Of a stretch of 41,068 bases of DNA, positions 1 to 32,585 are shown one piece after another. Origin of the DNA: Methylobacter sp. BlB1 (GTDB lineage: Bacteria > Pseudomonadota > Gammaproteobacteria > Methylococcales > Methylomonadaceae). The position numbers were made by a program, and so were the translations under genes. The notes under the pieces are model-generated. The model was not told the origin of the DNA and searched no databases. It was given only the letters and a program-made list of their open reading frames with translations. Positions within the stretch are counted from its first letter, which is position 1, and the number at the start of each line of letters is the position of its first letter. The stretch is taken from assembly GCF_015476545.1 (NCBI RefSeq), contig NZ_JADMKV010000006.1:1-41068 (forward strand), read 5' to 3'.

Positions 1-4
1 TTTG

Positions 5-71
5 GCACATCGTGATGCCGCAGGGAAGAGGAGGAGTCCATACCATTATCCTATGTGCTTATTCGTTATAT
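5..71 (-). repeat. Probable attC site, cut by the left window edge
   Basis: On the minus strand the stop codon of the membrane-protein cassette (TAA) lies inside ATATAAC, a near match to the RYYYAAC end of attC. The same stop-in-core arrangement is seen in the neighbouring cassette. About 50 bases further on, GCACAT (53-58) and its complement (5-10) could form the inner stem. The GTTRRRY end would lie beyond base 1. The match is imperfect, so this is an inference. Confidence 0.4.
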
Positions 72-452
72 TCCGGTTCCATGCAGCCCTCTCTGGAAGA
101 ACATCTCGAACAGCACAATATGTAATAGCATTGCTATTAGAATATAAGGGATCATTCGCCATGGACGAACGACGACCATTGCTACGATTCCTTGTAAGAA
201 ATTCAGTACCGCAAGGACGAGGGCAGATGCCATAACAATGCCGCTAGTTATGCCGGCCGCATATGGGAACGAAAGCAATGTGCTCGAAGTGCCATTCTTC
301 AGTATCAATATGCCGGTGTAGAAGAGAAACGCTGCTATTCCGTAGTTCCTTAGGTTGTCGAAAACGAACTTCAGGTTGACATCTTTTGGATAAACCCGGA
401 AAAATGACGGATACTTCTCCGGATCTACTGGTTTCTTTTTCTCTTCATTCAC
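66..452 (-). CDS. Integron cassette: small three-helix membrane protein, unknown function
   Basis: A 128-residue protein with a charged, proline-containing N-terminus (residues 1-30, many Lys/Glu/Asp) followed by three hydrophobic stretches at about 38-52, 65-95 and 99-118. It has no signal peptide and no motif I recognise; it is probably an inner-membrane protein. It fills one cassette: its start is about 20 bases past the attC at 472-534 and its stop is inside the next probable attC core. An AGGA stretch lies about ten bases before the ATG. Small membrane proteins of unknown function are common cargo of chromosomal integrons. The existence of the gene is well supported by its position; the function is not known. 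Confidence 0.75.
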   Translation of the reverse strand: MNEEKKKPVDPEKYPSFFRVYPKDVNLKFVFDNLRNYGIAAFLFYTGILILKNGTSSTLLSFPYAAGITSGIVMASALVLAVLNFLQGIVAMVVVRPWRMIPYILIAMLLHIVLFEMFFQRGLHGTGI

Positions 453-471
453 TGCTCATCCTCTCCTAGGA

Positions 472-534
472 ACTCAACGTAAAGCTAAGGGGCGGGCGCG
501 ATAGCGACCGTCCTGCTTGAGCGCAATGTTAGGC
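472..534 (-). repeat. attC recombination site (63 bp)
   Basis: Read on the minus strand the site opens with GCCTAAC (528-534) and closes with GTTGAGT (472-478), which fit RYYYAAC and GTTRRRY. Just inside, GCGCCCGCCCCTTAGC is typical of the L' side of classical 59-base elements. The short length is that of the sites in mobile integrons. It separates the ABM cassette from the membrane-protein cassette. Confidence 0.88.
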
Positions 535-828
535 TTTTTGTTCAAGTACCAACTCATAATGCTCAACGGTAGGGAACGGACTATAAAAATGATGGAGTAA
601 CCGCTTCCACTCCTAATATTGGGCTGAAGTACGAAAGCCAACTGTATGCGCCTCAAGGGACTGCCAATTTACCAACAAAATATAACGGTAGTTATTTTCA
701 ACGCAACGTTGGAGCTGGTGTGAAATATAACCATCCATACTGGAAATAATCGCCGATGCCTGACGAAACGCAGCTTCAAACTCAGCTTCTTTACCTGGGA
801 CTACATCAAGAACGGCAACTTCTAGCAT
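529..828 (-). pseudogene. Integron cassette: ABM-domain monooxygenase family, interrupted by an amber codon
   Basis: The open part (613-828, 71 residues) reads as an antibiotic biosynthesis monooxygenase (ABM, dimeric alpha-beta barrel) protein. It shows the N-terminal strand MLEVAVLDVVPGKE, then HQLQRCVEN, YRYILLVNWQSLEAHT and VGFRTSAQY. A TAG at 613-615 ends it. In the same frame the sequence goes on for 27 codons (EWKRLLHHFY..FPTVEHYELV) to a TAA at 529-531 that sits inside the attC core GCCTAAC. The expected C-terminus of the family is therefore still present, and full length would be 99 residues, the usual family size. The simplest reading is a CAG to TAG change at a Gln after QY. Without suppression the product lacks its last helix and strand. 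Members of this family act on quinones, haem or small aromatics; no substrate can be assigned. Confidence 0.8.
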
Positions 829-842
829 GATATTTCACGAAA

Positions 843-965
843 GCCTAACGTAAAAGTAAGGGGCGCGCCGGTTGGCTTGGTTTAGGGAAGCCGACGTACC
901 CAGATAAATAACCAACCTTCAAAAACACCTGCGTCCTGCGCGTCCCTTTGACTGCCATGTTAGAC
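843..965 (-). repeat. attC recombination site (123 bp)
   Basis: On the minus strand it runs from GTCTAAC (959-965) to GTTAGGC (843-849). Inner elements AAAGGGACGCGC and GCGCGCCCCTTACTTT are imperfect complements, as expected for the folded single-stranded site. The variable terminal structure between them makes it twice as long as the attC at 472-534. It closes the uracil-DNA glycosylase cassette. Confidence 0.88.
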
Positions 966-971
966 ATTACC

Positions 972-1649
972 TCACGTATGTTGTAATAGTTGTTTTTTAA
1001 GATGTAGCTTTGCGCGTTCTTGCAGCAACTTCCTCTCTGGTTTGTTAAGCCAGGTTGAAGCCCCAGATGTGTGTGCAAGTGGTATGACCTTACGGCCATT
1101 CCAATCGTAAACTTGACCCACGTGGTCTTCGAGTCGGACGTTCGTGCGTTGTCCTGTCTTGAGTTCTATGAATACTTCAAGTGCCATCTTTCCGAGCAGA
1201 ACGACAGTTTCAGGGCTAACTAAGTCGAGTTGTGAGAGAAGAAAAGGGCTACAGTTTCTGAGCATCTCCGGGCTAGGTTTGATGTCCTCTCGTCGCATTC
1301 CCGAGCCTCGTCGGCGTGGCACAAGTTTGCTACCAGGAAAACACTTAGCTATCGCTGAAGTGAAAACGAGACGTTCAAATTGGGCTTCATTGAAGCCGCA
1401 CTCTTCAAAGAGTGCTCGTATATCTCGTCCAGCTTGGCCTGAGAACGGAGTTCCCGTTCGATACTCAGTTAAGCCAGGAGCTTGTCCGATGAGCATGACA
1501 GGACAGCATCTAATGGGTCTGATGATGGGACGCGGAACTACAGGCTCATTTGAGGTTGCCGGGTCAACTTGATGTTTTAAAAGTAAATGCGCGCACTTTG
1601 TGCACTTACGCAGTTCAATTTCGTATGTATGTGGGTTGAGTGTGACCAT
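972..1649 (-). CDS. Integron cassette: uracil-DNA glycosylase superfamily protein, Fe-S type
   Basis: A 225-residue protein. The start at 1649 is chosen because an upstream ATG (1688) would place the N-terminus inside the attC. The motif LIGQAPGLTEYRTGTPFSG (about residues 53-71) is the uracil-binding loop of UDG families 4 and 5, and HTSGAS near residue 190 matches the second active-site loop, with Thr where Pro is usual in HPS. Four cysteines stand where a 4Fe-4S cluster is bound in these families: Cys16 and Cys19 (CTKC), Cys103 (AKCFPG) and Cys133 (RNCSPFL). It probably removes uracil from DNA, or is a relative with another base specificity. It is followed by its own attC and preceded by that of cassette 1. 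It is intact, unlike the next cassette. Confidence 0.85.
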   Translation of the reverse strand: MVTLNPHTYEIELRKCTKCAHLLLKHQVDPATSNEPVVPRPIIRPIRCCPVMLIGQAPGLTEYRTGTPFSGQAGRDIRALFEECGFNEAQFERLVFTSAIAKCFPGSKLVPRRRGSGMRREDIKPSPEMLRNCSPFLLSQLDLVSPETVVLLGKMALEVFIELKTGQRTNVRLEDHVGQVYDWNGRKVIPLAHTSGASTWLNKPERKLLQERAKLHLKKQLLQHT

Positions 1650-1663
1650 TATTGAAGTGTTAC

Positions 1664-1759
1664 GTCTAACGTTTGAATTAAAGGTCAAGTCAGGCCAAAT
1701 GATGTTGAATCATGAGATGAGCTTTCCCCTGACTTGTACCTTTGAATGAAGCGTTGAAC
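1664..1759 (-). repeat. attC recombination site (96 bp) with an extrahelical base
   Basis: On the minus strand it runs from GTTCAAC (1753-1759) to GTTAGAC (1664-1670). The arms AAAGG-T-A-CAAGTCAGG and CCTGACTTGACCTTT pair completely except for one extra A. Such an unpaired base is the feature that integrases use to choose the strand of the folded attC. This is the first attC of the array, closest to intI. Confidence 0.85.
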
Positions 1760-1879
1760 GACATACATGACGGCATTTTCAAGTGGTGCATTGGCGTTGA
1801 ACTCAGCGGTGAAATCTTTTATCTGGCTAAAACCGCCTTGCTGTTGTTCGTCATTAACGTTGTTATGCGACAACAGCAA
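1685..1879 (-). CDS. Small ORF of the first cassette, function unknown
   Basis: A 64-residue frame, opening with TTG (three possible TTG/CTG codons in a row) and running into the attC at 1664-1759. No ATG is available in frame: the frame is open back to 1898 but the only ATG there (1896) is in another frame. Its first third is encoded by the right arm and loop of the perfect inverted repeat at 1829-1888. The C-terminal part is polar (RYKSGESSSHDST). No family is recognised. It may be a genuine small cassette gene, a decayed one, or not coding at all; cassettes without an ORF are known. Confidence 0.3.
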   Translation of the reverse strand: MLLSHNNVNDEQQQGGFSQIKDFTAEFNANAPLENAVMYVVQRFIQRYKSGESSSHDSTSFGLT

Positions 1880-1888
1880 GGCGGTTTT
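1829..1888. repeat. Perfect 19-bp inverted repeat beside the attI region
   Basis: The arm AAAACCGCCTTGCTGTTGT (1829-1847) is repeated exactly as its reverse complement at 1870-1888, with a 22-base centre. The flanks are A/T rich on both sides (TTTT AATAGCATTTTTT on the plus strand after the right arm), so it could act as a transcription terminator in either direction, or extrude as a cruciform. It lies in the first cassette, between attC and the presumed attI. It does not have attC core sequences at its ends. Confidence 0.75.
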
Positions 1889-1950
1889 AATAGCATTTTT
1901 TCAGCGCTGCGTCAAAAATCCAGAAATGCAACCAATCTGTCGGGTATGTT

Positions 1951-2090
1951 GATCAACGTAATATATACGACATTACTTGTCCAATAATCCAGTCAATACG
2001 TCGTATAATCATACATAATTAAAATTATTTATTTGTTGATATTGACTAAAGTATAAGCAAATACGACAAACCATGTAAACAAATGCGACA
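1951..2090. other. Presumed attI region with ATRCGACA repeats
   Basis: In an integron attI lies between intI and the first cassette. Here that interval holds four same-direction copies of ATRCGACA at 1865-1872, 1965-1972, 2061-2068 and 2083-2090; the last two are 22 bp apart, directly at the intI start. On the minus strand TTACGTTGATC (around 1951-1960) resembles the TTTACGTTGAGT end of attC and could be the attI crossover point. By analogy with attI1, which has direct repeats bound by IntI, these may be integrase-binding sites. The repeats are seen; the role is inferred. Confidence 0.45.
1970..1996 (-). promoter_or_regulatory. Candidate cassette promoter (Pc)
   Basis: On the minus strand TTGACT (1991-1996) and TAATGT (1970-1975) are separated by 15 bases and point into the cassette array. 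The -35 match is good, but the spacing is two bases shorter than ideal, so this is weak evidence. Confidence 0.25.
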
Positions 2091-3077
2091 CTACCTCAGC
2101 CAAAGAAATTACTGGACCTGGTACGGGACAAGATTCGTTTCAAACACTATAGTCTAAGCACTGAAAATACCTATATTGCCTGGATTAAACAATTCATTAT
2201 CTTCCACGGCAAGCGACATCCAACTGAAATGGGCGCAGCTGAAGTGGAGGCATTTTTAACCTATCTTGCCACTGAACGCCATGTTTCCAGTTCAACTCAG
2301 AATCAGGCATTGTCGGCCATTTTGTTTCTCTATCGTGATGTGCTGGCAGTGGAACTCCCTTGGCTGGATGGATTTGAGCGCTCTAAAAAACCACGACGTT
2401 TGCCGGTAGTATTGACGGTTTTGGAAATGCAGGCATTGCTGAAGGAAGCCGAAATGGCTCCGCCGCCAATCGGTCTAATCATCAAGTTGCTGTACGGCAC
2501 CGGCATGCGCTTGATGGAGGCGGTGCGCCTGCGCGTGAAGGATGTGGAATTGACGCGCAGGGAAATTATTGTCCGCGATGGCAAGGGTGGCAAAGACAGA
2601 GTGACAATACTGCCGGATAGTTTGCTGGATGCGATGCGTGCTCAGTTGGCGTTGCGCCGGCAATGGCATGAGCAGGATTTAGCGCTGGGCAAGGTGGACG
2701 TCTGGCTGCCGGACGCGCTGGCAGTCAAGTATCCCAATGCCTCAAGGGAATGGGGCTGGCAGTACGTGTTTGCGGCAAAAAATTATTCGATTGATCCTCG
2801 CAGCAAGGCGGAGCGCCGCCATCATATCGAGGAAAAACAGATACAGCGGTATGTCAAAAAGGCGGCGTTGGCGGCCGGCATCGCCAAGCCGACTTCGCCG
2901 CACACGTTGCGCCACAGCTTTGCAACGCATATGCTGCAGGCCGGTTACGATATTCGCACCGTGCAAGAGCTGCTAGGCCACAGCGACGTGGCGACGACGA
3001 TGATTTACCCCCATGTGCTGAACAAGGGCGGCAAAGGTGTTATCAGCCCGCTGGATCAATTCTTGCAGGCGGATTGA
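2079..3077 (+). CDS. intI: Integron integrase IntI (tyrosine recombinase), normal start codon lost
   Basis: A site-specific recombinase that inserts and excises cassettes at attI and attC. The frame is open from 2079 and begins with IntI-like sequence (PQPKKLLDLVRDKIRFKHYS, then WIKQFIIFHGKRHP) in the SAM-like DNA-binding part. Counting from the internal ATG at 2229, the catalytic residues are Arg94 (GTGMRLMEAV), His225 and Arg228 (HTLRHS), His251 (LLGHSD) and Tyr260 (MIYPHVLN). The IntI-specific insertion is at 163-183 (ALAVKYPN..EWGWQYV). An ATG at 2073-2075 is exactly where the family start is expected, but the next codon is TAA. No ATG, GTG or TTG occurs in frame between 2079 and 2229; only CTG (2112, 2118) or ATT codons could serve. 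Starting at 2229 would remove about 50 conserved residues. So the gene is either inactivated by one nonsense change or uses a rare start. The catalytic domain is otherwise intact. Confidence 0.9.
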   Translation, partial: TNATLPQPKKLLDLVRDKIRFKHYSLSTENTYIAWIKQFIIFHGKRHPTEMGAAEVEAFLTYLATERHVSSSTQNQALSAILFLYRDVLAVELPWLDGFERSKKPRRLPVVLTVLEMQALLKEAEMAPPPIGLIIKLLYGTGMRLMEAVRLRVKDVELTRREIIVRDGKGGKDRVTILPDSLLDAMRAQLALRRQWHEQDLALGKVDVWLPDALAVKYPNASREWGWQYVFAAKNYSIDPRSKAERRHHIEEKQIQRYVKKAALAAGIAKPTSPHTLRHSFATHMLQAGYDIRTVQELLGHSDVATTMIYPHVLNKGGKGVISPLDQFLQAD

Positions 3078-3081
3078 AAAA

Positions 3082-3130
3082 GCTTGCGGAACCAGAGTTT
3101 CTCATACTCGATCTCTCATATCCCGCAAGC
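3082..3130. repeat. Inverted repeat after intI
   Basis: GCTTGCGG (3082-3089) and CCGCAAGC (3123-3130) form a perfect 8-bp stem with a 33-base loop just after the intI stop. There is no T-run, so it is at best a weak terminator. Confidence 0.35.
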
Positions 3131-3167
3131 CATGGAACATGCACAAAGTAACTTCCCAAGCTGCACA

Positions 3168-3190
3168 GTGCGAATGAATTCGCACCTACA
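3168..3190 (-). repeat. REP-like palindrome with a GTAG head
   Basis: GTGCGAAT-GA-ATTCGCAC (3168-3185) is a perfect 8-bp hairpin, and on the minus strand it is preceded by TGTAG. This is the layout of REP elements (GTAG or GGAG head plus short palindrome), like the GTAGGAGCGAG family of Pseudomonas, which are moved by RAYT (TnpA-REP) transposases. A single copy is visible between the convergent intI and prfC genes. Confidence 0.55.
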
Positions 3191-3215
3191 ACCTGTAGCT
3201 CATCACTATGTTGTT

Positions 3216-4796
3216 TTATAATTCCCTTGTCGCGCTGAATTTGATATCAGGCCAGCGCTCCTCAGTCAGTTGCAGGTTAACCCGGCTGGTAGCCAGATAA
3301 ACCAGATAGCCGCCACCATCTTCGGCCAGGTTGTCAAAAGCTTTATTCCTGAATTCCTCCAGTTTGCCGGGCTTGTCCGAGCTGACCCAGCGCACCGTCG
3401 AAACCGATACGGCGTCGTACACGCATTCGACGTTGTACTCGGCCTTCAAGCGGTAAGCGGTCACGTCAAACTGCAGCACACCCACGGCGCCCAGGATCAG
3501 GTCATTGTTTTTCAGCGGCCTGAACAACTGCGTCGCGCCTTCTTCGGTCAACTGCACAAGGCCTTTTTGCAGGGCCTTGGCTCTGAGCGGATCTTTCAGC
3601 ACCACGCGGCGGAACAATTCCGGCGCGAAATACGGTATGCCGCCGTATTTGAGGACTTCGCCCTGCGTAAAGGTGTCGCCGACCTGAATCGTGCCGTGGT
3701 TGTGCAAGCCTATGATGTCGCCTGGGTAGGCTTCCTCGACGCTTTTGCGGGTGTCGGCCTGGAACGTGATCGCGTTGGACACCTGAACGTTTTTGCCGAT
3801 GCGGACGTGATTGATCTTCATGCCTTTGTCGAACTTGCCCGAGCAGACGCGCAGGAAGGCCACGCGGTCGCGGTGGGCCGGGTCCATGTTGGCCTGGACT
3901 TTGAATACGAAGCCGCTGAATTTGTCTTCTTCAGGCGAAACGGTGCGTTGGATGGCTTCGCGCGATCTGGGCGGCGGCGCATACTCGGCGAATGCATCGA
4001 GCAGTTCCAGAATGCCGAAGTTGTTGATCGCGGAGCCGAAGAAAACAGGCGTCAGCCGGCCGGCCAGGTAGGCATCCAGATCGAACTCGTGGCTGGCGCC
4101 TTTCACCAGGTCGATTTCATCCCTTAATTCCTGCGCCTGATCGCCTAACAGTTCGTCCAGTTTGGGATTGTCCAGGCCTTTTATGATTTCGGCTTCGGCG
4201 ATTCTGCCGCCGTGCTGCGGGCTGAACAAGTGAATTTCATCCTTGTACAGATGATAAACCCCTTTGAAACGCTTGCCCATGCCGATAGGCCAGGTCATGG
4301 GCGCGCAATTGATTTTCAGGACATCCTCGACCTCGTCCATCAGTTCGATCGGCTCGCGCCCTTCCCGGTCCAGCTTGTTGATGAAGGTCAGGATAGGCGT
4401 CGTGCGCAGGCGGCAGACTTCCATCAGATTGATCGTTCTTTCCTCGACACCCTTGGCAACGTCTATGACCATGAGAGCCGAATCGACGGCCGTCAGGGTC
4501 CGGTAGGTGTCCTCGGAGAAGTCTTCATGGCCGGGCGTGTCTAACAGATTGATAATGCAGCCTTTGTGCTCGAACTGCATGACAGAGGTCGTGACCGAGA
4601 TCCCGCGCTCCTTTTCCATTTCCATCCAGTCTGAGGTGGCATGGCGTGCGGCTTTGCGCCCCTTTACGGAACCCGCCAGCTGAATGGCACCGCCGAACAG
4701 CAACAGTTTTTCAGTCAGTGTGGTTTTACCTGCGTCAGGGTGGGAAATAATAGCGAACGTGCGCCGACGCCGCAGCTCTGAAAGTAGTTCTGACAT
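3216..4796 (-). CDS. prfC: Peptide chain release factor 3 (RF3)
   Basis: A 526-residue translational GTPase that removes RF1/RF2 from the ribosome after peptide release. The GTP-binding domain is complete: P-loop SHPDAGKTT (18-26), G3 [14 protein letters not shown] and G4 NKLDR, and switch I with [14 protein letters not shown]. Domain II and the RF3 C-terminal domain ([11 protein letters not shown] and [13 protein letters not shown] near the end) follow, and the length matches the E. coli protein (529). The start [21 protein letters not shown] matches the family. The gene is convergent with intI and divergent from the lipoprotein gene at 4901, with a 104-bp AT-rich promoter region between. 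It is a core gene and marks the boundary of the integron. Confidence 0.97.
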
Positions 4797-4900: not shown

Positions 4901-5548
4901 ATGACTTTTTTACGGCGTTTTATTTTAATCGGCTCAATGTGCTCTTTGACTGCCTGCTCGAGCATGTATTACGGCGGCCTGGAAAAAATAGGCATCCCTA
5001 AACGCGAGGTCATGGTTTATCGCGTGGAAAAAGCTCGCGACACGCAGGAAGAAACCAAGGAGCAATTCAAGTCGGCGCTGGAACAGTTCACTGCCCTAAC
5101 CAATTTTAAAGGCGGAAATCTCGAAGCAACCTATAACAAACTGAACGGTGAATATGAAGACAGCGTCAGGAAAGCCGAGGAAGTCAGACAACGCATCAGC
5201 GACATCGAGGATGTCTCCGATGCCTTATTCCGCGAATGGGAAGATGAATTAAACCAATACAGCAATGCATCGCTGAAACGCAGCAGCCAGCAAAAACTGA
5301 CTGCTACCAGGGCGCATTACAAGCAGCTGATTGCCGCCATGAAACGCGCCGAATCCAAGATAGCGCCGGTGCTGAGCGTGTTCAAGGATCAGGTGTTATA
5401 TTTGAAGCACAATCTGAACGCTCAGGCGATCGCGTCCTTAAAAGGACAATTAGGGCTGGTGCAATCCGATGTATCGACCTTGATCACAGCCATGGAAAAA
5501 TCGATTCAAGAAGCCAATGCCTTTATCAGAACCATGGAAAAGCAATAG
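4901..5548 (+). CDS. DUF2959 family lipoprotein
   Basis: A 215-residue protein with a lipoprotein signal peptide: Arg5-Arg6, a short hydrophobic stretch and lipobox LTAC with Cys19, followed by Ser-Ser, which suggests outer-membrane sorting. The mature part is almost wholly alpha-helical and charged, with long coiled-coil-like stretches (EETKEQFKSALEQF, EYEDSVRKAEEVRQRI, and the C-terminal helix). The pattern IPKREVMVYRVEKARDTQEE is that of DUF2959 proteins, which are common in gammaproteobacteria and have no known function. The start is supported by AGGAG six bases upstream. It is a single gene, read away from prfC and followed by a long hairpin. Confidence 0.85.
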   Translation: MTFLRRFILIGSMCSLTACSSMYYGGLEKIGIPKREVMVYRVEKARDTQEETKEQFKSALEQFTALTNFKGGNLEATYNKLNGEYEDSVRKAEEVRQRISDIEDVSDALFREWEDELNQYSNASLKRSSQQKLTATRAHYKQLIAAMKRAESKIAPVLSVFKDQVLYLKHNLNAQAIASLKGQLGLVQSDVSTLITAMEKSIQEANAFIRTMEKQ

Positions 5549-11714: not shown

Positions 11715-13376
11715 TTATTTTTCCATTTGTTTAAAGATATCACCTAAAGTCGGTGTACCAGCTTGTTGCTGGGAATAATCTTTAATAGCGTGCGACTCTT
11801 CTTCCTGATCTTTGGCTTTAATGGATAAAGAAATAGTTTTGCTTTTCTTATCCACACCAATGAATTTGGCTTCAACTGCATCGCCTTCCTTCAACAGAGT
11901 GCGTGCATCTTCAACGCGGTCACGTTGAATCTCGGAAGCGCGAATGTAGCCTTCAACATGATCCGCCAGGGTAACAACAGCACCTTTAGCGTCGACTTCT
12001 TTGATTGTGCCTGTAACCAGGCTGCCTTTCTCATGAGTTGCCAGGAAGTTCTGGAACGGATCCTGCTCAAGCTGTTTGACACCCAGTGAGATACGCTCGC
12101 GCTCGGAATCAACCGCTAAAATGACAGTTTCCAGTTCGTCGCCTTTCTTGAATTCACGAACCGCTGCTTCGCCGTCGTCCGCCCAAGAAATATCGGACAT
12201 ATGAACCAGACCATCAATGCCGCCTTCCAGACCGATAAAGATGCCGAAGTCGGTAATTGATTTGATTTTACCGGTGATCTTGTCGCCTTTGTTATGAGTC
12301 GCAGCGAATTCGTCCCAAGGATTGGTTTTGCATTGTTTCATGCCCAAAGAAATACGACGGCGTTCTTCGTCGATTTCCAGTACCATGACTTCAACTTCAT
12401 CGCCCAATTGCACAATCTTGGATGGGTTAACGTTTTTGTTAGTCCAATCCATTTCAGATACGTGCACCAGACCTTCCACGCCTTCTTCGATTTCAACGAA
12501 GCAGCCGTAATCGGTCAGATTGTTCACTTTACCGAATACGCGAGTGCCGGCTGGGTAGCGACGGTTGATGTTTTGCCATGGATCTTCACCCATTTGCTTC
12601 ATGCCTAATGAAACACGGTTTTTGTCTTTGTCGTATTTCAGCACTTTAACCTGGATTTCCTGGCCGATTTCAACGCACTCGGAAGGATGACGCACACGGC
12701 GCCATGCCATGTCAGTGATGTGCAACAGACCGTCAATGCCGCCCAGATCAATGAATGCGCCGTAATCGGTCAGGTTTTTAACCACACCGGTAACGATTGC
12801 ACCTTCTTCCAGCGTTTTCAGCAATTCTTCTCTTTCCGCGCTGTATTCTTTTTCTACAACTGCACGACGTGACAGAACAACGTTGTTACGTTTCTGGTCG
12901 ATCTTGATAACTTTGAAGTCCAGATCACGGTTTTCCAGGAAAGCCGTATCTCTGATTGGGCGCACATCAACCAGTGAACCTGGCAGGAACGCACGCAACG
13001 CGCCAACAGCAACGGTGAAACCGCCGCGTACTTTACCGGTGATGCGGCCTGTAACTGTAGCATCTTTTTCAAACGCGGTTTCCAGTTCAGACCAGGCTTT
13101 GTTTTTCTTCGCTTTATCTCGGGAAAGAAGTGTAGCGCCTAAACCATCTTCAAATAAATCAAGGGCAACTTCGATCTCGTCCCCGACTTTAACTTCCAGT
13201 TCGCCGTCATTGTTCAAAAACTGCCATTTAGGAATGACACCTTCTGATTTGGAATGAGTGCTGACGATGATCATATCGTTTTCGATATCGACCACAGTAC
13301 CCATTAACATGGCGCCAGGACGCATTTCTGTCTTGGTTAGACTTTCTTCAAATAATTCCGCAAAGCTTTCGCTCAT
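11715..13376 (-). CDS. rpsA: 30S ribosomal protein S1
   Basis: A 553-residue mRNA-binding protein of the small subunit with six S1 (OB-fold) repeats. Repeats 3-6 are easy to see by their recurring pattern [53 protein letters not shown] and [13 protein letters not shown]. The start is placed at [13 protein letters not shown], which matches the family, rather than 36 bases upstream. No clear Shine-Dalgarno sequence precedes it (GGGAAAATTGAAA), which is also true of E. coli rpsA, whose leader folds and is autoregulated by S1. It lies between cmk and ihfB in the usual order. Confidence 0.97.
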
Positions 13377-29800: not shown

Positions 29801-32585
29801 GCCAGAGCAGCAATCCCCGCCGGGTAAACAGCATGCGTCCTGCCGAAGACAGAATGGCATCCAGGCAAATCAGTGTGTCATAAGGCAAAAGCACCAGAGC
29901 CAGCACCGCGAGCAATACCGAGCGCGTAGCGGATTTATTGACCAGAATGAAATGCTCCAGCCACTCACGATCTTCCGGCTTGCGGATCAGTTCAATCCCG
30001 GCCTCCAGCAGTGGTTGAAAAAACAGGATAATAATCACCAGCAATGTCCATGACCATGCTGGCATGGGACCGAACAGCCACCCACCCACCAGCAGGGCAA
30101 GCAGAGCCGGCGGCACCAGGCTGCGCCTTAGATTATCGAAAATTTTCCAGATCGACAAAGGCGCAAGCGGGTTCGGCTGCCGCTCGCCGTCCGGTCCCGG
30201 CACCTTCGGCAGCAGCCAACTGACCAACTGCCAATCGCCGCGTATCCAGCGGTGCCTCCTGCTGGCTTCCATCGCGTAACTGGCCGGATGTTCTTCTATC
30301 AGATCGACATCGCTCACCAGACCGGATCGCGCATGCCCGCTTTCCAGCAGATCATGGCTGAGAATGAGGTTTTCAGGAAAGCGTCCTTCCAGGGTCAGGC
30401 GAAAGGCATCGACGTCATAAATGCCTTTACCGATAAACGAGCCTTCGCCAAAAATATCCTGATAGACATCCGATACTTCACGGGTATAAGGATCAATGCC
30501 GGCTTCACCTGCGAACAGGCGAGTAAACCTTGACTGGCTCGCACTGAACAGGCTGATCGACGCACGGGGTTGCAGGATGGCGTAGCCGTCCGTTATGCGC
30601 CGCTTCGCATGGTCGTAAATCGGCCGGTTAAGAGGATGGGCAATATTGCCGACGAGCCTATGCGCCGCGTCCCGCGGCAGTTGCGTATCAGTGTCCAGGG
30701 TAATGACATATTTGATCGAAGGGAGAATGGACGGATCGCCGACCAGTTCCGAAAAGGCGGCTTCGCCATCGCCTCTCAGCACGGCATTGAACTGTTCCAG
30801 TTTGCCTCGCTTGCGCTCGTAACCCATCCAGACGCGTTCATGCGGATTCCATACCCGCGGCCGATGAAATAAATAAAAAATACACGGTCTATCGTTCCGG
30901 TATGTTGCATTGAGCGCCTCAACGGCTGTGCGCGCCAGCGTGAGCAGTTCTTCATCGCCTGGCTGCGTCTGTTCGGGCGCGTCGCTGAAATCGGTCAATA
31001 ACGCAAAGAACAGATTGGGATCCCGATTGCCGAGATAGCGGATCTCCATAGCTTCAACAAGCTCATCCACATCCTGCGGCTTGCTCAGCAAAGTCGGAAC
31101 CACCACCATCGTACGATGTTCGGCCGGAATGCCCCTTGAAAAATCCAGCCGAGGCGGCATGCGAGGCGGAACGATCATCATCGCGAATTGATTGACCAGC
31201 GGCACAGCCAGCGCCATGCCGCCGATCATGCTGCAGATGGCAAAGAACCAGAATTGCCAGTTACCTGGATCTATACCATCCAGCGACATCAGTACAATCG
31301 ACGCCGTTACGGCGGTAAGCAACAGAATGGAGCCGATATAAATACTCAGTCTAAAACGCCGGAAGACACGGACGGCGCGAACCATCCAGCTCATGTGATA
31401 GTCGACCTTGCGCTCCAGAGGATACCGCCCCTTATCGATCAGATAAAAACCAACATGCGCGGAACGGTCGGCGGTCGTCAAGCGCTCGGCAGCGGCCTGC
31501 GCGAACGCAACCGCTTCGCGGGCCACGTCTGATTCACTGTGCACGCTGCCCTTCGCTATTTTTTCAATGATGTGCCGATACAGGTCACGCGTGGCGAAAT
31601 TCTGCCTGCCGTACACACCAGCCGGATCTTTTCGCAGGATTTGCTCCACGGCGCTATGCGCTTCGACAAAATCCCGCCAATCCATAGAACTGATAAACCG
31701 CAAACTGCCAATACTGTTGGCGATGGAGATCTGGTTGGCTGCCGCCGTGTGGCTGGCGTCCTGGATTAACTGCGTCGAATTGACGCCCTGTTCGAGCAAC
31801 TGGTTATCGATCCAGGTCTGCACGAAGGCCAGCGACGTGCCCTGAATCTGGAGCCTTGCATTGAATTCTTCCACAATCGCCGCCGTTAATGGCACATCAG
31901 CAGCCGCAAACTCGGCGAGTAATTGCGCGAGCTGTTTTGGGTCCTTTTCGGCCATGTCCAGCATGCGATCAGCCCACATGACTGCTGTATTGTACTCTTC
32001 GCGCCCGCGCGCTATGCGCGATCCAACCCGTCGAAGATTCTCCAGTAAAGCCAGACGCAGCATGATCGGAAATGCCCATAATTCACCCAGCTTCAATGGC
32101 TCGACAGTCTGGTAGGCGGCGATGAAATGGGTCGCGTTTTCGCTGTCGACCCTGCCGTCCTGATGTGAAATCAGTTCCAGAGCCAGCTCATAAATACGAG
32201 GAAAACCAGCTGACTGACCGGTGGCCAGTTGTGGCAGTTCCCGACTATATGTGCGAGGGAGATGACGGCGCGCCAGATGAATCTGCTGCTCGATTAAATA
32301 AAAATTATCGAGCAGCCAAGCCTCAGCCGAGGAAATATGCTGCTCCTCATTGACTGCCGCTGTGACCACATCATAGGCTGCCAGCAGAACCTGTTCATTA
32401 TCGGCCAACCGAGGCAGCAAACGGTCCGGTCCGGGCCTAGGATTGATTCGATGCCGGCCGGCCAGCGCGACCGCATACCGCTTCAATTGCTCGACGCTGA
32501 ACAGTTCCGAGCGCAATAGCTCAGTATCCCTGCCATCCTGATGGTTGTGCCGCTCAAGTGTAGAAAACCCAAACTCTTTGAACAC
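23865..32585 (-). CDS. ndvB: Cyclic beta-1,2-glucan synthase (NdvB/Cgs type)
   Basis: A giant inner-membrane protein of 2,906 residues, comparable to Brucella Cgs and Rhizobium NdvB (about 2,830-2,870). It starts glucan chains on itself, extends them from UDP-glucose, closes the ring and trims the length. The N-terminal part is helical, with membrane segments near residue 420-480. A GT84 glycosyltransferase follows, with DTDTQLPRD near residue 640 and HRWIRGDWQ further on; further membrane segments lie around 820-1000. A glycoamylase-like domain and two carbohydrate-binding/GH94 regions come next, with CGDWNDGMNLIG near residue 2,590, the phosphorylase-type catalytic Asp. The start is placed at the GTG at 32585, which has AAGGAG nine bases upstream. 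The longest frame begins at another GTG at 32615 without a close Shine-Dalgarno sequence. The product is expected in the periplasm in osmotic adaptation. galU in this window could supply UDP-glucose. Confidence 0.93.
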   Translation of the reverse strand: MFKEFGFSTLERHNHQDGRDTELLRSELFSVEQLKRYAVALAGRHRINPRPGPDRLLPRLADNEQVLLAAYDVVTAAVNEEQHISSAEAWLLDNFYLIEQQIHLARRHLPRTYSRELPQLATGQSAGFPRIYELALELISHQDGRVDSENATHFIAAYQTVEPLKLGELWAFPIMLRLALLENLRRVGSRIARGREEYNTAVMWADRMLDMAEKDPKQLAQLLAEFAAADVPLTAAIVEEFNARLQIQGTSLAFVQTWIDNQLLEQGVNSTQLIQDASHTAAANQISIANSIGSLRFISSMDWRDFVEAHSAVEQILRKDPAGVYGRQNFATRDLYRHIIEKIAKGSVHSESDVAREAVAFAQAAAERLTTADRSAHVGFYLIDKGRYPLERKVDYHMSWMVRAVRVFRRFRLSIYIGSILLLTAVTASIVLMSLDGIDPGNWQFWFFAICSMIGGMALAVPLVNQFAMMIVPPRMPPRLDFSRGIPAEHRTMVVVPTLLSKPQDVDELVEAMEIRYLGNRDPNLFFALLTDFSDAPEQTQPGDEELLTLARTAVEALNATYRNDRPCIFYLFHRPRVWNPHERVWMGYERKRGKLEQFNAVLRGDGEAAFSELVGDPSILPSIKYVITLDTDTQLPRDAAHRLVGNIAHPLNRPIYDHAKRRITDGYAILQPRASISLFSASQSRFTRLFAGEAGIDPYTREVSDVYQDIFGEGSFIGKGIYDVDAFRLTLEGRFPENLILSHDLLESGHARSGLVSDVDLIEEHPASYAMEASRRHRWIRGDWQLVSWLLPKVPGPDGERQPNPLAPLSIWKIFDNLRRSLVPPALLALLVGGWLFGPMPAWSWTLLVIIILFFQPLLEAGIELIRKPEDREWLEHFILVNKSATRSVLLAVLALVLLPYDTLICLDAILSSAGRMLFTRRGLLLWHTNSYVRRNTRRTLGDFFLEMWIAPVMASGLAVALAFAWGDSRWTEWLLTAPVLLIWLVSPAIGWWISKPLAPPAADLTADERIFLRSLARRTWRYFAEFVAPLDNWLPPDNFQEYPDPVIASRTSPTNMGMALAANLAAYDFGYISAGELLYRTEKTVATMEKLERYQHGKGCNYKYGHFYNWYDTRTLQPLHPQYVSSVDSGNLVGSLLTLQTGMAELKSQPVLSANAIQGLDDTFQVLLAEYDRLPPTQALTSPIQTLQHLLAARKPDSEIQTLVEVDAQLEKIQHAAAELFAALSADAESELHYWAQTLDHQVSSLREDVNTLVPDLRRFSAIPTLQELAETGETDAEPATGIQHKLAKERIRFIDELIERCRKLADMDFKFLYDTKADLLAIGYDVGERRRDPACYDLLASEARLVSFLLIAQGQLPQQHWFTLGRLLTSQGSDVSLISWSGSMFEYLMPQLIMPSYQNTLLEQTCRAAVSRQIEYGRQRNVPWGISESCYNLTDMHQTYQYRAFGVPGLGFKRGLGDDLVIAPYATALALTVTPQSACRNLQTLVANGFLGRYGLYEAIDYTPARVMRGKNCAIVRNFMAHHQGMSLLAFEHVLLDRPMQRRFMSDPLVRATDLLLQERVPKKGYTLHPHAAEVSAAARPPVAEEGEILRVFIDPNTPIPEVHLLSNGRYHVMATQAGGGYSRWHDLAVTRWREDTTADNWGAFIYLRDLDTREYWSSAYHPTLRKADHYESIFVQSRAEYRRRDRNIEAHTEISVSPEDDVEIRRVTLTNLSLQMRRIEVTSYAEVVLAPLNADLAHRVFSNLFVQTEILPERQAILCSRRRRTPEEHTPWMFHLITVTGTAADEPSYETDRTQFIGRGRTAANPAVFDDSDRPLALSNTEGPVLDPIIAIRQALLIEPDSSAVVKIITGAADTREAVLELIDKYRDRHFIERAFEMAWFHSQEVLRHLNASESDAQIFGRLATSVIYSNALRRAPPSVIARNQLGQPGLWPFAVSGDWPIVLVRIGDVSRIDLVRQMLQAHAYWRVKGLATDLVILNEDFSGYRAVLHDQIMGLINIISNEAQMLDKPGGVFVRRAEDLTEEDRVLFQTVARVVLTDTAGTLAEQVEQRVAAERVAERRKRWRQGSIQRRILTEHFPEALVPIRQPAAEVINPLPARERIFFNGLGGFTPDGREYVITLEPGQNTPAPWANVIASPYIGTVVSESGGAYTWVGNAHEFRLTPFHNDPLSDISGEAFYVRDEETGEFWSPTPLPARGRSGYVCRHGFGYSTFEHFEAGIYSELTTYVAMDEPVKFVVVKLRNDSGRPRHLSLTGYWELVMGEWRHANQMHIVTETDHHSGALLARNAYGRESAHRVVFVQISELVHTVTGNRAEFIGRNGSLARPAALYRTHLSGKIGAGLDPCAAMQTPIELENGQEREIVFVIGASHDTEGAQRLTRRFGEPISARQALEAVWAHWNRTLGAVYVETPDRAFDVMANGWLIYQTLSCRVWGRSGYYQSGGAYGFRDQLQDTMALIHATPRLAREQLLRCAGRQFIQGDVQHWWHPPGGQGVRTHFSDDYLWLPYATCRYVTATGDTGVLDEFVHFLEGRELGPEEEAYYDQPLQSSEGASLYEHCVRAIKYGLRFGDHDLPLIGCGDWNDGMNLIGREGKGESVWLAWFLYDNLRLFADLARSRSDEGFAEICRERAGQLLLNIEANAWDGAWYRRAYFDDGTPLGSASNDECQIDSISQSWAIISGGGNPERARQAMEAVDERLVRREVQIVQLLTPPFDKSDLEPGYIKGYVPGVRENGGQYTHAAIWTAMAFAMMGDKKRAWELFTMLNPINRTGQAQQRELYKVEPYVIAADIYGAPPHTGRGGWTWYTGAAGWLYRLSVETLLGLQLKVDKLHITPYMPDHWPSYKIHYRYRDTLYRITVKRIGEKPEQVIRVLIDGAESEEPGAISLIDDRQPHDVDVELGRR

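Follow-up and report, generated by a model that had tools for sequence, protein, structure and literature searches.

In Xanthomonas, chromosomal integrons have been described in which intI is inactivated by stops, frameshifts, or deletions and the arrays persist (PMC12444791), and one integron cassette carries the small RNA sRNA-Xcc1 (PMC12444791; reviewed in PMC8876359). Gene-less promoter cassettes are known from Vibrionaceae (PMC11014356), and integrons together with separate attC clusters from Methylococcus, methanotrophs of the same order as the organism considered here (PMC8527097). According to the parts of these sources that were consulted, stable arrays beside an inactivated intI, promoter cassettes without genes, and integron-borne small RNA are already known. 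Here, we describe an integron on contig C194 of Methylobacter sp. BlB1 (positions 1-41068; hereafter the window, which is the whole stretch of 41,068 nucleotides that was analyzed). The genome comprises 4.87 Mb in 227 contigs.

The locus is a real chromosomal integron of a methane-oxidizing bacterium and is ordinary by kind. We consider it likely that it is a sedentary Methylococcales chromosomal integron whose integrase is now off and whose array is frozen, the most likely role of the cassette that adjoins attI (cassette 1) being that of a leader or promoter. An earlier note on this DNA (the original prediction) had proposed a chromosomal integron; the IntI gene, the attC sites, and an attI beside intI were all confirmed. 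Overlooked in that note were the stop after the intI start, the hairpin cassette without a gene, and the further attI platforms. Like the Xanthomonas integrons, as described in the consulted part of that report, the locus retains its array beside an intI that is probably inactivated; unlike them, it belongs to a setting of several dispersed attI-anchored arrays per genome, most of those examined lacking a full intI (PMC12444791). The integrase-less attI platforms and the hairpin cassette are what is unusual here, both as candidate features with regard to function. A limited search of the open-licence literature, in which the query for solitary attI was weak, found no report of this hairpin cassette or of repeated integrase-less attI in methanotrophs. 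The features of the locus are as follows.

1..477, minus strand: cassette 4, incomplete at the contig end, with a gene at 66-452 (128 aa).
472-534, minus strand: attC of cassette 3, 63 nt, 38.2 bits in attC model R1.
478..848, minus strand: cassette 3, with a gene at 613-828 (71 aa), terminating with attC 472-534.
843-965, minus strand: attC of cassette 2, 123 nt, 53.1 bits in model R1 (E 2.2e-12).
849..1669, minus strand: cassette 2, with a gene at 972-1649 (ATG, 225 aa) or 972-1688 (TTG, 238 aa).
1664-1759, minus strand: attC of cassette 1, 96 nt, from the strict motif scan, 20.8 bits in model R1 (rough E 0.0012).
1670..1956, minus strand: cassette 1, 287 bp, without a gene, adjoining attI.
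1752..1960, no strand assigned: long imperfect inverted repeat of ~210 nt, the body of cassette 1, from fold and consensus structure.
1828..1889, no strand assigned: terminal hairpin, its 20-nt arms perfectly complementary and its bulged core conserved.
1957..2072, plus strand: attI region, with the crossover near 1956/1957.
2073..3077, plus strand: intI, with ATG at 2073-2075, then TAA at 2076-2078, then 332 open codons.

The four cassettes read away from attI at ~1957 in the order gene-less hairpin, uracil-DNA glycosylase-like gene, antibiotic biosynthesis monooxygenase (ABM) gene, and cut-off 128-aa gene. The attI boundary is fixed by a relative with one extra cassette inserted there. Crossover at attC follows the G|TT rule, with which the boundaries of the three complete cassettes (1670-1956, 849-1669, and 478-848) were drawn; the fourth cassette runs to the contig end, and its attC is expected at or beyond base 1. 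The proposal that the cassette genes lie opposite to intI holds for all three open reading frames (ORFs; 66-452, 613-828, and 972-1688, on the minus strand, with intI on the plus strand), but the attC nearest attI (1664-1759) ends a cassette that has no gene.

Across the 41,068 bases, the strict motif scan found three attC sites, each of them on the minus strand; in Markov shuffles (n = 40), the same scan gave a mean of 0.125 sites per window and a maximum of 1. When the relatives' loci were scanned in the same way (19 of the 20 fetched loci; L049, the locus of the window's genome with the broken intI, was excluded), 58 sites lay on the expected strand and 4 on the opposite one. Of these 58, 35 were used to build a covariance model, which contained no sequence from the window. 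Its top three matches in the window were the three sites (3/3), which had been predicted as attC sites of different length, and the next-best match (9.4 bits) was the opposite strand of one of them. Two candidates of a looser scan, 11870-11930 on the minus strand and 31764-31891 on the plus strand, were supported by neither the strict scan nor the covariance model. The site at 1664-1759 is the weakest of the three, yet it has a homologue in another genus. The 63-nt site is 91-96% identical over 56-60 nt to sites in four related genomes (G001, G002, G046, and G062). Sites closely related to the 63-nt and 123-nt types occur in arrays across several genomes of this family; for the 96-nt type, G135 contains one. 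The types are thus the family's usual ones, so a local pool accounts for their diversity and distant sources are not indicated, contrary to the suggestion that a mixture of attC types points to cassettes of multiple origins.

The open frame of intI (2079-3077, plus strand) was compared with integrase families. Its part from 2229 on scored 403 bits with TIGR02249 (cut-off 265), and the longer frame scored 455.7 bits. The same part scored 150.7 bits with XerC, 151.5 with XerD, and 163.2 with archaeal XerA, all far below the models' own cut-offs (335 bits for XerC and 330 for XerD). The open frame could be aligned, over its residues 13-327, with the structurally characterized integron integrase 2A3V. 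A tree of 35 rows placed the 28 IntI sequences apart from the two Xer proteins of the genome (97/98) and grouped the IntI of the window with the proteins of G135 and G062 (100/100); the outgroup branches are very long and the deep part of the tree is unsure. By these comparisons, the integrase of the window is assigned to IntI and not to XerC/XerD. The attC model and the placement of the integrase had been set beforehand as tests that could refute the original prediction, and both outcomes agreed with it. IntI above the cut-off was found in 75 of 151 family genomes.

Cassette 1 carries no recognizable gene. Its longest start-to-stop ORF in the window is 64 aa, and the indels among five members are mostly not multiples of three; on these grounds a coding cassette was ruled out. 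The whole cassette folds with a z of -6.65, and none of 200 shuffles folded as well. Pairing holds in 92.9% of pair cells across the five members, and both-side changes occur in 8 of 94 pairs (shuffle mean 3.2; 0/500 shuffles reach 8). Further pair types stand out less by their number (20 vs 17.3 in shuffles, of which 40/500 reach 20). In the terminal hairpin (helix 6), the stem sequence varies between members and pairing is mostly kept (86.7% of cells), whereas the bulged core and the outer arms are nearly invariant. The consensus structure was tested on the five sequences that had served to derive it, and palindromes can keep their symmetry by template switching, without selection; the structure is therefore supported, but a function is not proven.

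A search with a model of the cassette body identified carriers in 8 of 311 genomes from the order, counting the window's own, under stricter filters that weak relatives may escape. Nine of 17 genomes from an earlier match search had short matches only; none of them was among these eight, and they were not counted as carriers. The members in G176 and G178 lack the terminal hairpin, and that in G120 ends at a contig end. The cassette stands first at attI in the window, G051, G125, and G178, and also in G176, where attI was judged by eye from a short resemblance; it lies one cassette further out in G135 and G205. No intI was found beside it in G125 and G205. No match was found in phage and plasmid collections (1e-5). 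In a search with the hairpin core, four of six matches were in Methylococcales, Methylococcaceae, or Methylobacter records; the matches outside Methylococcales (L096 and L098) showed no stem and were taken as chance.

Like the gene-less promoter cassettes of Vibrionaceae, as far as the consulted part of that report defines them, cassette 1 has an attC and no ORF over 70 aa; unlike them, it represents one conserved family with a ~210-nt inverted repeat, and its promoter activity is putative (PMC11014356). We tentatively regard it, with somewhat less than even confidence, as a putative structured leader or promoter, which would govern the expression of the cassettes behind it. A promoter scan of 1-3300 weighs against this, as the number found was not above chance (7; shuffle mean 4.4, sd 2.1).

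Two other explanations of cassette 1 were weighed. It may be a selfish folding element whose symmetry is maintained by template switching between the arms and not by selection on an RNA. Palindromes in general can stay symmetric in this way, and the loss of the hairpin in two members would fit. A strand preference of the kind expected from RNA was not clear either: an initial count of 28 vs 6 wobble cells was an artefact of a structure folded on the plus strand, and with a neutral choice of pairs (those that are Watson-Crick in most members) the count was 9 vs 6. However, the near-invariance of the bulged core and the outer arms, while the stems differ, argues against such an element, and we consider it rather unlikely. 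Alternatively, cassette 1 may be a structured small RNA with its target elsewhere, comparable to sRNA-Xcc1 as a possible non-coding RNA in an integron cassette, within what the consulted parts of those sources describe (PMC12444791; PMC8876359). The both-side changes, and the retention of the cassette in G125 and G205, where no intI was found beside it, are consistent with a small RNA. The few carriers, the missing terminal hairpins, and the lack of a clear strand preference are not; unlike sRNA-Xcc1, moreover, cassette 1 has no match to a described RNA family, the search of Rfam with window 1-2100 having given no family near its gathering score and only matches far below. We regard this explanation as unlikely.

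By known integron biology, IntI would in the past have captured the cassettes at attI via folded single-stranded attC sites. As read from the sequence, the stop directly after the start codon, in frame, would now keep the integrase off and the array fixed. In G135 and G062, the nearest relatives, an ATG with no stop behind it corresponds to window 2073-2075 (matched by eye). After the TAA of the window, no in-frame ATG, GTG, or TTG occurs before position 2229 (codon 51 of the open frame), and the remainder of the frame is intact. A start codon followed by a stop, with no alternative start before codon 51, suggests that the integrase is off and hence that the array is frozen; we conclude that the integrase is probably disabled. 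The same ATG-stop is present in the congeneric G003, in an intI copy without the middle of the gene (L207), which argues against a plain sequencing error. Intact intI copies are present in relatives. At E 1e-60, the genome contains just one further IntI match, which lies on C168 and is interrupted by five stops; as far as found, the genome is without an intact integron integrase. This degenerate second intI lies at G000:C168:36807-37601, and one attC is located ~2.5 kb upstream.

Several observations tell against a disabled integrase. The gene is otherwise intact, and of the window-specific changes, 18 are silent and 8 are not, in 325 codons (compared with the four full copies of G135, G062, G083, and G152; G184, which has a stop, was excluded). 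This excess suggests that intI was under selection until recently, or still is, and a loss of function, if real, would be recent. Since the split from the G003 copy, two window-specific changes have occurred in 87 codons, both non-silent, which are too few to judge. The shared ATG-stop in G003 could equally mean that another start is used. The integrase may accordingly still work via a rare start codon or re-initiation after the ATG-stop, leaving the array mobile. The 332 codons without another stop, the alignment with 2A3V, and the predominance of silent changes (18/26) would favor this. However, the absence of an in-frame start before codon 51, the stop-free start in the two nearest relatives, and the finding that this attI type is seldom accompanied by a full intI make a working integrase quite unlikely in our view.

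A search of the family with a 35-base attI pattern (≤3 mismatches) gave 82 matches, which were spread over 47 of 237 family genomes including the window's own. At least two matches, and up to four, were present in 19 of the 47 genomes; most matches were not inspected individually, and none among those listed was to the reversed pattern. How often a full intI accompanies attI was judged from 25 attI loci, one per genome, taken from another list of 67 places. The 24 outside the window comprised two with full intI without stops, one full with a stop, one cut by a contig end, and 20 truncated or empty, so that a full intI was lacking at 20 of 23 assessable loci; some attI beside full intI (G044:C4, G128:C8, and G135:C1:1028535) are not in this set. 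The intI breakpoints differ among most copies compared. The idea that cassette 1 locks integrons by selecting for intI loss draws on damage or absence of intI in six of seven carriers (the window, G051, G178, G125, G176, and G205; intact in G135; G120 excluded because its surroundings are cut by the contig end), but it is highly improbable and was dropped, because only two of the 20 loci without full intI (G051 and G125) carry the cassette and 18 of 23 non-carriers are damaged as well, counting G044:C4 and G128:C8 with their full intI, so that damage is common with or without cassette 1 and the association is not special.

Returning to the favored frozen array, the gene of cassette 2 is a divergent member of the uracil-DNA glycosylase superfamily (PF03167, E 1.8e-22). 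With 66.9 of 250 and 54.7 of 125.3 bits, it stays below the type-4 cut-offs of NCBIfam, and its closest relative among 237 family genomes is 40% identical (G051:C163). The gene of cassette 3 belongs to the ABM family (PF03992, E 8.6e-13). For that of cassette 4, no NCBIfam or Pfam family (E 0.001), no PADLOC family (0.01), and no plasmid match (1e-5) was found. The integron is neighbored by prfC (release factor 3; window 3216-4796) and a DUF2959 protein (4901-5548). Window base 1 is contig base 1; the array is therefore cut by the assembly, and "past the window" means past the contig end. The predicted extension of the array over the left edge was right in that the array is incomplete at the contig end, but a continuation was not supported: no 18-mer was common to the left end of the window and eight other contig ends (300 bases each), and three other arrays have an attI of their own.

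The attC model, applied to the whole genome, gave 27 matches at E ≤10 (150 of 1,428 candidates scored), and further attC sites are present elsewhere in the genome. They cluster on C172, C227, C174, and C145; C197, C168, and other contigs have weaker or solitary sites. Three of these arrays have an attI-like site at the expected end:

G000:C172:3528-9012
G000:C227:85548-90983
G000:C174:29767-33919

No PF00589 (tyrosine-recombinase) match was found on these contigs (E 0.001). The genome has at least four attI-anchored arrays (C194, C172, C227, and C174). The three resemble CALIN (attC clusters without intI) in having no tyrosine-recombinase match on their contigs, but differ in retaining the attI-like site. 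An integron and separate attC clusters within one order recall Methylococcus; repeated attI sites and a hairpin cassette are not mentioned in the consulted part of that report (PMC8527097).

In one form of the platform, attI is followed by conserved non-coding DNA without intI. Among 12 copies of this form, including two in the genome of the window, seven have ~260-300 bases in common with others and five have less (~85 to 230). The non-coding attI element, up to ~300 bp long, was seen at L127, L128, L194, L195, L198, L199, L201, L202, L203, L204, and L163, and some genomes hold more than one copy. In G106, two attI platforms with truncated intI (L238 and L239, near 2.50 and 1.83 Mb) are 98% identical over 1,648 bases, and their arrays are similar only in attC-sized stretches. 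Mobility of the platforms was considered and set aside, as this pair resembles a segmental duplication (its right boundary was judged by eye, and no search for terminal repeats was made). Between different G106 platforms, attC sites reach 99% identity over 89 bases, with no further flanking similarity (E 1e-8), which fits one shared cassette pool. At E ≤0.05, attC sites were found at 8 of 16 platform loci searched and at none of the other eight.

The platforms may represent satellite integrons of Methylococcales, that is, dispersed integrase-less attI elements, several per genome and with the conserved non-coding form of up to ~300 bp as one kind, with arrays of their own that would be loaded in trans by one integrase elsewhere; we hold this to be doubtful on present comparisons. 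The hairpin cassette provides a defined and conserved object for asking what gene-less cassettes do. If trans loading is true, one integrase could serve several cassette arrays in a genome, and attC clusters now classed as remnants would belong to a single distributed system.

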